A stretch of DNA of 64,000 nucleotides from an uncultured Opitutia bacterium (GTDB lineage: Bacteria > Verrucomicrobiota > Verrucomicrobiia > Opitutales > Opitutaceae): positions 62,001 to 126,000 of the forward strand of contig CAIUOU010000014.1 of the NCBI GenBank assembly GCA_903900845.1. Reading direction: 5' to 3'. Below the pieces are notes generated by a model. The model was not told where the DNA came from, ran no database searches, and saw only the letters and a list, made by a program, of their open reading frames with translations. The translations under genes and the position numbers were made by a program. This document shows, piece by piece, positions 37,833 through 64,000 of the stretch; the first letter of the stretch is position 1; every line of letters begins with the position of its first letter.

Positions 37833-39023
37833 ATGGCACCCCCAAATATCCTCTGGATCCTGACCACGCAGTGGCGGGCACGGACGTGCGGCTACGCGGG
37901 GGATCCCGACGCGCGCACCCCGGCGCTCGACGCGCTGGCGGCGGAGGCGGTTGATTTCACGGAGGCGGTGACGCCGCATCCGTTCGGACCCTTCGCGCGC
38001 GCCGCGCTTCTCACCGGCATTCCCTCTCCCGAAAACGGCGTGCGTGACTATTTCGACCCGCTTCCCCGGAACGCACGGACCATAGCGCATGACTTGGGTG
38101 AAGACGGTTACCGTACGGCATTCTTCGGCAAATGGCATCTGGCCGAAAAGCCGAACGACATGCCCCTGGTGGGTGAGGCGCACGCGCGCCTGCGGGTGGC
38201 GGAGGGCGCGCGGGGCGGGTTCGCGCATTGGCAGGGCTTCGAGGGCGGGTTTCAACTCAATGACCCGTGGCTGCACGGAACCGGAATCGACGAGCCCCGG
38301 CGGTTTTTCGGTTACCAGAGTGACGTCGTCTGCGAGCGTGCGGCCGCATGGCTCGTTTCCGCGAAAGGGTCGCCCGCATTCTGCGTGGTGAGCCTCGAGC
38401 CTCCGCACCCGCCCTACGATGCTCCGGCGGCGGGGGTGGCCCCGCGCGACCCCGCTGAAATGCGGCTGCCGGCGAATGTGCCGGCGGCGGCAGAGGCAAA
38501 GGCGCGAAAGGAGCTCTCAGGCTATCACGCTCACCTCGAGGCGACGGACCGCGCCATCGGGCGCCTGCTGGAGAAAATTGATCCGGACCGTTGCGCGGTG
38601 GTTTTCACTTCGGTGCACGGCGACATGCATGGAGCGCATGGACTTTTCAGAAAGGGCTGGCCGCACGAGGAGAGCGTTCGGGTTCCATTGCTCGTACGAT
38701 CGCCCGGTTTGGGCGCGCGCCGTGACCGCGGGGCTCTGTCATTGGTCGACCTGCCGGAGATCACGCGTGGCCTCGCGGCCGGAAAACGCCCGGAAATCAA
38801 CCGCCGTCACGCGCGGATCTCGATGCCTTCGGTTGTGGCGCTGCCTCAGCAGTGCGATCGCGTTTGGCGCGGCGTCCGCACGGCGGAGCGCAAACTCGTG
38901 CTGGGACCGGAAGGCGCGCCGTGGCTGCTTTTCGACCTCGAGCGGGACCTACTCGAGCAGGCCAATCTGGCGGAAGATCCCGCCCGCGCGGCCGAAATCG
39001 AGCGGCTGCGGTCGTTCTGTTGA
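37833..39023 (+). CDS. Sulfatase-fold protein lacking catalytic residues
   Basis: 396 aa without an evident signal peptide. Alignment by eye to the sulfatase family is clear throughout (PNILWIL, RTPALDALAAEAV, FFGKWHLAEK, LSGYHAHLEATDRAIGRLL, KGWPHEESVRVPLLVRSPG). However, the Asp metal ligand of TDQ is Thr12 (TTQ), the formylglycine Cys/Ser of the C-x-P-S-R motif is Gly52 in FGPFARAALLTG, and the Asp of SDHGD is Val261 (SVHGD). His262, Lys100 and Lys274 remain. It is probably not a working sulfatase. It could be a binding or regulatory protein, or a phosphoesterase with altered chemistry. It diverges from the DUF1080 gene. Confidence 0.82.
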   Translation: MAPPNILWILTTQWRARTCGYAGDPDARTPALDALAAEAVDFTEAVTPHPFGPFARAALLTGIPSPENGVRDYFDPLPRNARTIAHDLGEDGYRTAFFGKWHLAEKPNDMPLVGEAHARLRVAEGARGGFAHWQGFEGGFQLNDPWLHGTGIDEPRRFFGYQSDVVCERAAAWLVSAKGSPAFCVVSLEPPHPPYDAPAAGVAPRDPAEMRLPANVPAAAEAKARKELSGYHAHLEATDRAIGRLLEKIDPDRCAVVFTSVHGDMHGAHGLFRKGWPHEESVRVPLLVRSPGLGARRDRGALSLVDLPEITRGLAAGKRPEINRRHARISMPSVVALPQQCDRVWRGVRTAERKLVLGPEGAPWLLFDLERDLLEQANLAEDPARAAEIERLRSFC

Positions 39024-39644
39024 TCAGGCGTTCTTCGCCGAGGATGATTTGCGGGCCAGATACGGACAGACGAGATGGCGGGAGAATAGCACCGGCAGCA
39101 GCCCCGGAAGAATCAACGCGGTGCCTGCTCCGGCGACGTCTAGTGAAAGTTTCCCCCTTAGGAAGAGCGCCCCGAAGCCCGCGGACGTGATGGCCAGCAC
39201 CGGAAAGAACGCGGCACGTAGGTGGGTGCCGTAGGCGAAGAGGAAGGCCACGATCAATCCCGGTAGCGCCGCGTGCGGTGGAAGCAGGGTGATCGTCAGC
39301 CCGATCGCAAACGCGATGGGGGCGTTCATCGCATCGTGTTCCTTGCAGACCATCGTCTGCAGGATGGTCGCCGCGCATAGGATCATCCCCCTTAACGCCA
39401 GCGGGACGTACTTCATGAGGCCCTGCGCGTCCGGTGCGCGCGCGATTGCCTCCATCAGGAGCCAGGCTCCGGCAAAAGCGCGGATCAGATCAAAACCGTG
39501 CGTCCAAAGTCTCAACGTCCGGCCCCAGTAACCGTCCCAATCGCGCGTCAGGTCTCGGTATTGGACCCGGTGGCCGTGAAAGACGGCGGCCGGAGTCAGG
39601 AGCAGAGCAAGCGCACCGAGCAGTTTGAGCCAGTCGATGCTCAT
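39024..39644 (-). CDS. Polytopic membrane protein, unknown
   Basis: 206 aa. At least five hydrophobic helices are seen (about 5-22, 50-68, 78-95, 108-140, 145-190), connected by short loops with TRDWDGYWGRTLRLWTHGFD. I do not recognise the family. The start MSIDWLKLLG at 39,644 begins at the first helix. Its stop abuts the stop of the convergent sulfatase-like gene with no gap, and its start faces gltX across 130 bp. Confidence 0.65.
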   Translation of the reverse strand: MSIDWLKLLGALALLLTPAAVFHGHRVQYRDLTRDWDGYWGRTLRLWTHGFDLIRAFAGAWLLMEAIARAPDAQGLMKYVPLALRGMILCAATILQTMVCKEHDAMNAPIAFAIGLTITLLPPHAALPGLIVAFLFAYGTHLRAAFFPVLAITSAGFGALFLRGKLSLDVAGAGTALILPGLLPVLFSRHLVCPYLARKSSSAKNA

Positions 39645-39774
39645 GGAATGAAAGTCACCGTCGGAGTCTCGTCTGCGACCTCCCTCACGCAAGGACAGAG
39701 TCTTTGACAGCCGCGGGGCTGCGGGCGGAACCTATCGTTTCGGCGCCGGTATCCGCCGCTTCATCCTTTCCGCC

Positions 39775-41166
39775 ATGTCCAACGTCCGAGTGCGCTTCGC
39801 GCCCAGTCCCACCGGTTTCTTCCACATCGGCAGTGCCCGCACTGCGCTGTTCAACTGGCTGTACGCCCGTCACACCGGCGGCACGTTTATCCTGCGGATC
39901 GAGGACACCGACAAGGAGCGCAACAGCGAGGCGTTCCTCAGCCTGATCTACGAAAGCCTCACGTGGCTCGGTCTGAATTGGGATGAGGGTCCGCGTTTCT
40001 CCGGCAGCGGGGGCGGCGACCGCGGTCCGTACCGGCAGAGCGAGCGTGGGGACATTTACCGCGAATACGTCCAACGCCTGCGCGACTCCGGCCGCGCCTA
40101 CGAGAAAGACGGCGCCATCTGGTTCCGCCTCGAGGGCGAGCGTCACGAGGTGTTCGACGAGCACCGCAAAAAAACCGTGACCAAAGTTAAGGGCGCGCCC
40201 GTCGTGATCGAGGATCGTATCCGCGGCCGGGTGGAGCGCATGGAGGACGAGGACTTCGTCATCGTGCGTTCGGATGGTAATCCGGTGTTCCACCTCGTGA
40301 ACGTCGTCGACGACATCGCGATGGGCGTCACGCACATCATCCGTGGCGAGGACCACCTCTCGAACACGAGCAAGCACGTGCGGTTGTACGAGGGCTTCGG
40401 CGTCACGCCGCCGGCCTTCGCCCACATCCCGCTCATCCTGAAACAGAACGGTCCGGGCAAGATGTCGAAGCGCGACCAAGGGGCGCTGATCGAGGAGTAT
40501 CAGCGGCGCGGCTACCTGCCCGAGGCGCTGGTCAACTTCCTGTGCCTGCTCGGGTGGAATCCGGGCGATGATCGCGAAAAGATGCCGATCGAGGAAATCA
40601 TCCGCCTGTTCGATCTGCCCGGGGTCAACCAGAGCAACGCGCGCTTCGATGACCGTAAGCTGGCCCACATGAACATGGCCTACCTGCTCGAGTTGCCGGC
40701 CGACCGCTTCGTGGCTCTGGCGCGCGAAAACCTGGCCCGCCGTGAGGAGCCGGCGGCCCGCGCTGCCATCGCGGCCGACGCCGCGTTTTTCCGCGAGGTG
40801 ATGCTGCTCTGCCAGCCAAAGCTGAAGGGCTTGGAGGAACTGCCCGCGTACGCTGGATATTTCTTCACGGAGGATTTTGCGATCGATCCCAAGGTGCGCG
40901 AGAAGGTCTTGGCCAAGGGCGACCCGGCCGCGCGGCTGCGCGAGTTGCGCGCGGAGCTGGCCGCGATGGATTTCTCGAGCGACACGGCGATCGAGGAAGC
41001 CATCAAGGCGCTCGCCAACCGGGGGGGCTTCGGCTTCGGCGATTACCAGGGAGTGGCCCGGCTTGCGCTTTCTGGCACCAACGTTGGCCCCAGCATCACC
41101 GGCATGATGCGCGTCCTGGGGCGGGATCGGGTCTTGGCCCGTTTCGACCGGCTGCTCGCGACCTGA
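39775..41166 (+). CDS. gltX: Glutamyl-tRNA synthetase
   Basis: 463 aa. The class I motifs are HIGS (17-20) in [19 protein letters not shown] and KMSKR (229-233) in [14 protein letters not shown], with [15 protein letters not shown] and [11 protein letters not shown] between. It charges tRNA-Glu, and also tRNA-Gln if no glutaminyl enzyme exists. A Gly-rich insert [10 protein letters not shown] follows residue 74. The ATG has no Shine-Dalgarno sequence. It is convergent with the isoaspartyl peptidase, 6 bp apart. Confidence 0.96.
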
Positions 41167-61295: not shown

Positions 61296-62789
61296 ATGCC
61301 CGTTCCGCTTTGGCTTCGCATCCTGGTTTTCGCCGTGCTCCTGCCCGCCTCGTTTTTCGCCGCCGGCGTCGCGCGGCCCAACGTCCTGTTCATCATGGCT
61401 GATGATTACCGGCCGGAACTGGCCGCGTACGGCTCGCCGGCGCTCACGCCGAACCTCGATCGCCTCGCGCGGCGCGCGGTGCGCTTCGATCGCGCCTATT
61501 GCCAGCAGGCGGTCTGCAACCCGTCGCGGTCCTCCATGCTCACCGGTCTACGGCCCGACACGCTCGGGCTCTGGAACAACGGTACCCACTTCCGTGAACT
61601 GCGGCCCGACGCGGTCACGCTGCCCCAGCACTTCAAGGCGAACGGCTACGTCACCCGCTGCGTGGGAAAAATCTTCCACAACTGGCATACCAAGGAAAAA
61701 GGCGACGCCCGCTCTTGGAGCGCCCCCGAATTCCTGCATTACGCCTCCCACGGCCACGACGCCCCGCAGGTCGCCGGCCCGCTGCCACCCAACCTGGCTT
61801 CCGGCGGGGGCCGGCTTTATACCGACGTGCCGCTCACGGAATGCCGCGACGTGCCCGACGAGGCGTACTACGACGGCCGGGTCGCGGCCGAGGCGGTGCG
61901 AGTGCTGGGCGCAATCAACGATCAGCCCTTCTTCCTGGCCGTGGGTTTCTGGAAGCCCCATGCGCCGTTCAACGCGCCGAAGCGCTACTGGGACCTTTAC
62001 GACCGCGCCCGCCTGCCGGCGCTCGACCCGCGTCGTCCCGCGGGTGCGCCGGAAATCGCGTTTCACGACAGCCGCGAGGTGCTCGGTCTGCCCGGGCCCG
62101 GCCGCATCGCGCCCACGCCGGTGCTCGTGGCCGAGATGCGACACGGCTACTTCGCCAACATTTCCTACCTCGACGCTCAGCTGGGCAAAGTGCTCGACGC
62201 GCTGGACCGGGGAGGGCGGGCGAGTGACACGATCGTCGTGTTCGTCGGCGACCACGGATATCATCTCGGCGAGCACGGCCTTTGGGGCAAAACCTCGACC
62301 TTCGAGCTGGATGCCCGCGTGCCACTGCTCTTCGCCGCACCGGGGGTTGGTGCTGCCGGACGCGAAACCGCCGCGTTGGCGGAATTGATCGATCTGTTTC
62401 CGACGCTCTCCGACCTTTGTGGTTTGCCCAAGGTGCCGGGTCTTGAGGGCACGAGCCTCGTTCCCGTGCTGCGCGACCCCACGCATCCGGTCAAGCCGGC
62501 CGCCTACACGCAGCACCCGCGGCCGTCCTACTACGACCGGGAGCCGGAGAAGGTACCGCGCGCGATGGGTTACTCGGTCAGGACCGCCGCGGTGCGCTAC
62601 ACCGAGTGGCGCGACTGGAGGACGGGTGCGACGATCGCGCGGGAGCTATACGAGGAGGCGGATGCCCCCGCCGAGATCCGCAGCCTTCCCGATGAGGCGA
62701 GGTTGGCCGGCGCGCAGGCGGAAGCTGAACGTCTGCTCTCCGGACTTTTTCCACGCACCGCGCGGCCCGCCGCGAAGACTACTCCATGA
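61296..62789 (+). CDS. Secreted sulfatase (iduronate-2-sulfatase-like)
   Basis: 497 aa with signal peptide (WLRILVFAVLLPASFFAAGV). The formylglycine motif is CNPSRSSMLTG with C74, so a Cys-type maturing enzyme is needed; none is in the window. Metal ligands are in PNVLFIMADDYRPEL (Asp pair) and VFVGDHGYHLGEHGLWGK. The AYCQQAVCNPSRSSM and GFWKPHAPFNAPKRYWDLY blocks resemble iduronate-2-sulfatase-type enzymes acting on sulfated glycans. The next sulfatase overlaps its stop by four bases. Confidence 0.92.
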   Translation: MPVPLWLRILVFAVLLPASFFAAGVARPNVLFIMADDYRPELAAYGSPALTPNLDRLARRAVRFDRAYCQQAVCNPSRSSMLTGLRPDTLGLWNNGTHFRELRPDAVTLPQHFKANGYVTRCVGKIFHNWHTKEKGDARSWSAPEFLHYASHGHDAPQVAGPLPPNLASGGGRLYTDVPLTECRDVPDEAYYDGRVAAEAVRVLGAINDQPFFLAVGFWKPHAPFNAPKRYWDLYDRARLPALDPRRPAGAPEIAFHDSREVLGLPGPGRIAPTPVLVAEMRHGYFANISYLDAQLGKVLDALDRGGRASDTIVVFVGDHGYHLGEHGLWGKTSTFELDARVPLLFAAPGVGAAGRETAALAELIDLFPTLSDLCGLPKVPGLEGTSLVPVLRDPTHPVKPAAYTQHPRPSYYDREPEKVPRAMGYSVRTAAVRYTEWRDWRTGATIARELYEEADAPAEIRSLPDEARLAGAQAEAERLLSGLFPRTARPAAKTTP

Positions 62790-64000
62790 AACGACTGCGG
62801 TTTCTGCTGCTGGTGCTGTCCGCGGGGCTTGCCGCGGAGTTGGTCGCCGCATCCTCGCGGCGACCGAATGTGATCTTCATCCTCGCCGACGACCTCGGCT
62901 GGGGCGACCTCAGCTGTTACGGCAACACGTACCTCCGCACCCCGAATCTCGACCGGTTGGCGGCGGGGGGCTCCCTGTTCACCTCGTTCTACACCTCTGG
63001 CCCGGTCTGCTCGCCCAGCCGGGCGGGTTTTTTCACGGGGCGGTATCCCGCGCGCGATCGCATCCATGGGCACTTCGCGACGCGTGAGTTGAATGAGTCC
63101 CGCGGCATGTCGAGCTGGCTTGATCCCCGCGCCGCTAATGTCGCGGGCGCCTTCCGGTCGGCCGGTTATACGACCGCGCACGTCGGCAAATGGCATCTGG
63201 GCAACGACGCGGGCGGGCCGGCGATCGCGGATTACGGTTTCGACTTCGTGGGCTCGGGGGAGGGCGGCGGCGCGGGTGTGCGCAAGGATGATCCTTACTA
63301 TCGGGCGCGCTCCACGGCCCTGTTTGTCGACGAGGCGCTTCGTTTCATCTCCGGGCGGGGCGAGCGTCCATTCTACCTGCAGCTTTGGGCGTTGCTTCCC
63401 CACGCGACTTTGAACCCGACGCCGGAACAGATGGAACCGTTCTTACGACTGAGCAATCGGGACATCGCGCACCCCAGCGCCCGCACCCTTTACTACGCCA
63501 GTGTGGCGGACCTCGATCGTGAGATCGGCCGGCTGCTCGATCGTCTCGCCGAGCTGGGACTCGCTGACGATACGATCATCGTGTTCAGCAGCGACAACGG
63601 CCCCGAGGAGATCTTCATCCTCAACGCCGGACATTCCGGGGTGGGTTCCCCCGGTCCTTTCCGCGGCCGCAAGCGGAGCCTTTACGAAGGTGGCGTGCGC
63701 GTACCGTTTCTCGTGCGCTGGCCGGGGCGCGTACCGGCGGGCCGCGTGGATGACGCGACCGTGATCGGCGGGATCGATTTCATGCCAAGCCTCTGCGCGC
63801 TGGCCGGCGTGCGCCTGCCGGAGGGACATGCGGCGGATGGCGAGGACCTCAGCCGAGCCCTGCTCGGCGGTGTCGTCGATCGAGCGCGGCCGCTGATGTG
63901 GGAGTGGCGCTTCGGCATCGCGGGCCACGTGATCAACCGCAGCCCCCAACTCTCGATACGTGACGGGGAGTGGAAACTGCTGCTGAATCCGGACCGCAGC
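62786..64000 (+). CDS. Secreted arylsulfatase-type enzyme, 3' end beyond the window
   Basis: 405 residues are visible and the frame is still open at base 64,000. Signal peptide (RFLLLVLSAGLAAELVAAS) and intact catalytic parts: VIFILADDLGWGDLS, VCSPSRAGFFTGR (C75), VGKWHLGNDAGGP and FSSDNGPEEIFI. The start overlaps the previous stop (ATGA). The FRGRKRSLYEGGVRVPFLVR block and length fit arylsulfatase A-like enzymes. The C-terminus cannot be described. Confidence 0.9.
   Translation, partial: MKRLRFLLLVLSAGLAAELVAASSRRPNVIFILADDLGWGDLSCYGNTYLRTPNLDRLAAGGSLFTSFYTSGPVCSPSRAGFFTGRYPARDRIHGHFATRELNESRGMSSWLDPRAANVAGAFRSAGYTTAHVGKWHLGNDAGGPAIADYGFDFVGSGEGGGAGVRKDDPYYRARSTALFVDEALRFISGRGERPFYLQLWALLPHATLNPTPEQMEPFLRLSNRDIAHPSARTLYYASVADLDREIGRLLDRLAELGLADDTIIVFSSDNGPEEIFILNAGHSGVGSPGPFRGRKRSLYEGGVRVPFLVRWPGRVPAGRVDDATVIGGIDFMPSLCALAGVRLPEGHAADGEDLSRALLGGVVDRARPLMWEWRFGIAGHVINRSPQLSIRDGEWKLLLNPDRS

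Follow-up and report, generated by a model that had tools for sequence, protein, structure and literature searches.

What does a sulfatase-like protein do once the residues that would attack the sulfate ester are gone? The question is raised by a gene at positions 37833-39023 (+) of the window, by which we mean the whole stretch of 64,000 nucleotides analysed here. It is part of contig C14 of an Opitutaceae genome (G000) of 4.4 Mb, in which 108 matches to the sulfatase profile PF00884 were found, including several that are fragments of a single gene. The gene is an open frame with an ATG start, a TGA end and 396 codons plus the stop, and it was identified by this frame, a PF00884 match, the predicted fold of its product and matches throughout the family. 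The profile search matched positions 1-291 of the 301 positions of PF00884 (E 3.1e-31), with a score of 109.3 bits that exceeds the curated cut-off of 25 bits. An AlphaFold2 model, for which the window protein was combined with 55 relatives, has a mean pLDDT of 93.4 and a pTM of 0.94; its least confident block (68) comprises residues 261-270, the former metal loop. Via this predicted model, a sulfatase fold was recognized in the comparison with 2qzu (Z 42.0 over 389 of the 396 residues), and the further structural neighbours were likewise solved sulfatases, namely 6j66 (Z 40.7) and the choline sulfatase 7pth (Z 35.2). A sulfatase fold is predicted for the window protein with high confidence. 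Assignment to the choline sulfatases proper is not indicated, as the score of 103.1 bits with NCBIfam TIGR03417, reached best over residues 220-394, is far below the cut-off of 433.45. The preliminary description of this DNA had stated that the protein aligns with sulfatases along its whole length and that the gene shows no frameshift and appears to be maintained; the profile match and the structural comparison bear out the former, and the open frame together with the purifying selection described below the latter.

Three positions of the active site have been replaced. The outside comparison set consists of only nine sequences (L126-L134), 31-36% identical, and all nine contain Asp12, Cys52 and Asp261. 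In the group alignment, which holds 116 rows and 101 distinct copies, residue 12 (codon 37866..37868, +) is Thr in 99 distinct copies, Ser in one and a gap in one. Residue 52 (37986..37988, +), the formylglycine Cys/Ser of active sulfatases, is Gly in every distinct copy, and residue 261 (38613..38615, +), the Asp of the S-D-H-G motif in the outside relatives, is Val in 94 and Ala in seven. The Asp of this motif is presumably a metal ligand. Neither of the Asp metal ligands of active S1 sulfatases is retained in the family, the first of which, at site 12, is described as such in a part of a sulfatase survey (PMC5066984). The preliminary description had named Gly52, Thr12 and Val261 as replacements at catalytic positions and had proposed a search for homologues with the same changes; among the distinct copies Gly52 and Val/Ala261 recur in 101 of 101 and Thr/Ser12 in all 100 readable ones, which is far beyond chance. 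Thr12, Gly52 and Val/Ala261 are also present without exception in twelve extra copies from eight genera, although at least one of these (L147) duplicates a sequence that the alignment already contained (L120). Gln13, present throughout the family except for one gap, is not a loss because eight of the nine outside relatives also have Gln.

A misplaced nucleophile, which would have turned Gly52 into an artefact of a misread alignment, was looked for and rejected. The phmmer alignment to 2qzu is gapless around Gly52 (AVTPHPFGPFARAALLTG over AISSYPVSSPARGMLMTG), and Cys, Ser or Thr does not occur at positions 48-56 in any of the 101 distinct family rows. The signature C/S-x-P/A-x-R of active S1 sulfatases reads G-P-F-A-R in the window protein; between positions 45 and 62 it is found in none of the 101 family rows vs nine of nine outside relatives. 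A stricter published pattern (PMC5066984) is also absent from all 101 rows, but it is a weak control since it is matched by only three of the nine outside relatives.

In active sulfatases, His and Lys residues hold the sulfate and formylglycine attacks at a calcium site (PMC9063841, PMC10154612). The former set is kept in the window protein. Lys100 (38130..38132, +), His192 (38406..38408, +), His262 (38616..38618, +) and Lys274 (38652..38654, +), of which the first, second and fourth correspond by motif position to LysA, HisB and LysB, are kept in each of the 101 distinct copies, in agreement with what had been noted for Lys100, His262 and Lys274 from the window alone, and Arg56 is likewise invariant. 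In the His/Lys pairs near sulfate that are typical of S1, Lys100, His192 and Lys274 are complete and only His102 of the GKWH motif varies (78 His, 21 Gly and two Gln among the 101 distinct copies). Replacement of His102 may mark a further stage of the loss in certain lineages.

The surroundings of the former active site are the best-conserved part of the protein. The mean conservation of residues within five positions of ten active-site positions, with the ten themselves left out, is 0.908 compared with 0.694 elsewhere, a value equalled by none of 395 circular shifts. Part of this conservation reflects ancestry, because the catalytic motifs are the best-kept parts of any sulfatase. Thirty residues are specific to the family, with a fixation of 97% or more in the group and no more than one occurrence among the nine outside relatives. 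Of the 28 that are not themselves active-site residues 11 lie in the flanks vs 4.5 expected, a number reached by five of 395 shifts. Both of these comparisons measure nearness along the sequence and not in space. The fixed residues of the family near the pocket include Thr11, His49 and Trp276 and also Tyr73. His49 is present in 116 of 116 family rows and in none of the nine outside relatives. The family-specific residues Pro53 and Glu189 vary in the deep genera, where Glu189 is in some cases replaced by Asp; Thr11, His49 and Trp276 hold in the deep genera too. The matches of three copies (L121, L122 and L124, from G030, G031 and G034) are interrupted near residues 179-188, as would be expected if some genera have an insertion at this place.

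The gene is distributed throughout the Opitutaceae. At E <= 1e-60, 231 of 252 family genomes contain a match, usually one per genome, and all 49 genera are represented. In the class of good-quality genomes (at least 90% complete, at most 5% contamination) the proportion is 161 of 165. Seventeen of the 21 family genomes without a match fall outside this class and four within it, including G528, G589 and G596; losses or gaps therefore occur in the family. At the same threshold, 38 of 384 genomes sampled from the class and 37 of 387 sampled from the phylum matched, all of them members of the window's family and none from outside the Opitutaceae, in searches that scored the four top candidates per genome, so that a weakly matching copy might be overlooked where sulfatases are numerous. 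The first genomes listed without a match belong to other families. With a looser cut-off, four order-level genomes matched near 1e-43, and their proteins (L128, L129, L130 and L132) all have Asp, Cys and Asp at the three positions. The 80 named loci with a relative are records of Opitutaceae, Opitutae or other Verrucomicrobiota. In a tree of 21 group and nine outside rows, which left out own-genome paralogues and has long stems that elicited a program warning, all 21 group rows fell on one side of a branch (100/99). We infer a single disabling event, at or before the origin of the family, since when the gene would have been part of the Opitutaceae core.

Selection on the gene is purifying. The dN/dS analysis suggested in the preliminary description gave 0.115 for the window copy and its nearest relative (L041, 81% identical), an approximate value as dS is near 1.04. 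In 28 close pairs analysed by the Nei-Gojobori method, a set with some repeats because identical copies were present in two collections, dN/dS ranged from 0.06 to a maximum of 0.30 with a median of 0.146.

The absence of a signal peptide, also claimed earlier, was examined by a procedure that does not depend on the choice of the start codon. Of 96 distinct copies, 37 have an in-frame stop at most 16 residues ahead of residue 1, too close for a signal peptide to fit in between, and by a crude test a hydrophobic stretch of 12 residues within up to 45 residues upstream occurs in only three of the 96. Because of these upstream stops and the rarity of hydrophobic stretches, the pseudosulfatase is most likely cytosolic. 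Among the outside relatives, a hydrophobic leader is visible by eye in L126, L127, L129, L131, L133 and L134, four of which are flagged by the crude test, and is missing in L128, L130 and L132.

The genetic neighbourhood does not assign the gene to a pathway. An operon suggested by the initial clustering of neighbours was discarded, as most of what had been clustered were antisense shadow frames of the GC-rich DNA; an in-house GC3-based gene caller was used instead, which recovered the pseudosulfatase in 72 of 80 loci. In 69 loci a next gene follows downstream, and in 59 of these it is encoded on the opposite strand; the pseudosulfatase gene often stands alone. When 17 representatives of neighbour clusters were compared with Pfam, two matched, a peptide deformylase, relatives of which occur in 32 of 110 loci, and a cobalamin adenosyltransferase; the remainder were set aside. 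A kinase-like cluster is present in 50 of 80 loci; of its 57 members, 53 lie downstream of the pseudosulfatase and converge with it on the opposite strand. Its representative (L062:6892-10854, -), the sole member scanned, is a CHASE-PAS-HisKA-REC hybrid sensor kinase by Pfam. The cluster is not taken as evidence of pseudosulfatase function. In the window, the genes next to the pseudosulfatase do not belong to the kinase cluster. A frame at 39024-39692 (-) abuts the pseudosulfatase stop on the other strand and encodes a protein of 222 residues, which we take to be membrane-like; it had no NCBIfam match, and relatives occur in 21 of 110 loci, the window's own copy included. The frame at 39775-41166 (+) presumably encodes a glutamyl-tRNA synthetase-like protein. 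Promoter and terminator scans of the locus yielded nothing above chance.

It had been proposed that the protein may assist the active sulfatases, and sulfatase genes had been placed at about 61 kb. The latter are indeed there: two PF00884 matches lie at 61377-62423 and 62864-63811 of the window (G000:C14:123377-124423 and 124864-125811), and they and the other PF00884 matches of this genome speak for the proposal. Arguing against the proposal is the result of a PF00884 scan of 25 family genomes (10 + 15), most of which were selected because they had few candidates or represented other genera. Five of them (G035, G158, G246, G473 and G536; 94-99% complete) contain a single match, in counts that cover PF00884 alone. 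This match coincides with the place of the pseudosulfatase in G035, G158, G246 and G536, and its place in G473 is inferred. The residues were read in three of the five (L125 in G035, L144 in G158 and L147 in G246); G246 shares an identical stretch with L120, which is recorded as Cephaloticoccus capnophilus. Because the pseudosulfatase is the sole PF00884 protein in five genomes, assistance to active PF00884 sulfatases is ruled out as its general role. The lack of a leader also speaks against it, given the leaders of six of the nine outside relatives. As a general role the helper or decoy is already largely refuted, and we regard it as very improbable. The formylglycine-generating enzyme profile PF03781 and the radical-SAM maturase profile TIGR03942 had no match in G000 despite its 108 PF00884 matches. 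The nearest relative of this genome, G026, carries a strong PF03781 match, and a gap in the assembly is for this reason the likely cause of the missing PF03781.

Comparison with known systems shows where the protein departs from them. It shares with the formylglycine sulfatases (SulfAtlas S1/PF00884) the full-length fold, Arg56, Lys100, His192, His262 and Lys274, and differs from them in having no Cys/Ser nucleophile, two metal Asp residues lost, no signal peptide and fixed residues specific to the family. In the choline-O-sulfatase of E. meliloti (PMC9063841), His201/Lys309 and Lys102/His104 occupy the same motifs, matched by motif only, in an enzyme that differs from what is expected of the window protein in being active, containing FGly54 and binding metal. 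The Lys equivalent to Lys100 is more than 4 Å away from the bound sulfate in this structure, so conservation of Lys100 need not mean sulfate binding. In section 7 of the sulfatase survey (PMC5066984), the aligned sequences have Cys or Ser at the nucleophile position, and nine without the Arg are suspected to be inactive. These putative inactive sulfatases of Planctomycetes and Lentisphaerae resemble the present group as sulfatase homologues with a broken catalytic signature, but they lost the Arg and belong to an alignment described as having Cys or Ser at the nucleophile, whereas the Opitutaceae proteins lack the nucleophile and the metal ligands and have an invariant Arg. Section 7 of the survey contains no description of the Opitutaceae group (PMC5066984). 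Searches of the literature on inactive or non-catalytic sulfatases and on sulfatases of Opitutaceae, Opitutus and Verrucomicrobia likewise turned up no description of it among the matches listed. Heparanase-2 has a fold unrelated to that of sulfatases. Pseudoenzymes of the Heparanase-2 type (PMC12406646) are similar in that an inactive relative is kept for another role and dissimilar in that the protein is of animal origin.

In the best reading of these data, which we consider somewhat better than an even choice, the gene encodes a cytosolic, non-hydrolytic pseudosulfatase of the Opitutaceae core that binds one anionic ligand in its former active site. With Gly52 in place of the nucleophile and Thr12 and Val261 in place of the metal Asp residues, the formylglycine/calcium reaction should be impossible. 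The rest of the sulfate-handling pocket, Arg56 and the conserved His and Lys residues, is kept. Most likely it binds a single kind of anionic ligand, a small molecule or a sugar ester that carries sulfate or phosphate, and leaves it uncleaved; the protein would act in the cytosol as a binding or regulatory protein. The preliminary description had also named the binding of sulfated ligands and other chemistry as roles, and either may apply. It is read as a binder and not a cutter because the part that holds sulfate is kept and the formylglycine/calcium part is gone. Such strict conservation could likewise be expected of an enzyme that has acquired a new chemistry, and this is the main rival: a pocket rebuilt for a metal-independent reaction, for example that of a lyase, an isomerase or a transferring enzyme, with His49, His192, His262, Lys100, Lys274 and Asp264. 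The flanks, far better conserved than the rest, with many fixed ionisable residues, the 11 family-specific residues placed there and the exclusive His49 argue for it. The loss of the nucleophile and both metal Asp residues with no substitute near position 52, the lack of an operon pointing to a pathway and the change of the candidate Glu189 to Asp in some deep genera argue against it, and we consider it possible yet doubtful. In its boldest form, an Opitutaceae core enzyme free of metal and formylglycine that catalyses a reaction new to the alkaline phosphatase superfamily on a cytosolic anionic metabolite, it is rather unlikely.

Service as a scaffold or partner protein is a common fate of pseudoenzymes. 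Here the outer surface would matter and the pocket would be a relic; the gene often stands alone, so a partner could be encoded elsewhere. The conservation pattern, with flanks exceeding the remainder of the protein, is the opposite of that expected of a relic pocket and makes such a role improbable. A decaying pseudogene or a misread alignment, for which the three lost catalytic positions might speak, is excluded for practical purposes by the open frames, the purifying selection, the identical changes in 101 distinct copies and the confident fold.

As the gene is kept in nearly all family genomes searched, even in some without any other PF00884 protein, the pseudosulfatase probably does a job other than sulfate removal. 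Proteins that match PF00884 are readily annotated as sulfatases, by which the whole group would be misnamed and nearly every genome of the family would be credited with one false sulfatase. The group provides a clear example from nature of a hydrolase fold that lost its catalytic centre and is under strict selection in nearly every family genome searched, and in which the surroundings of the active site are still the best-kept part of a disabled hydrolase. The genomes in which the pseudosulfatase is the sole PF00884 protein make its role in the Opitutaceae directly testable.
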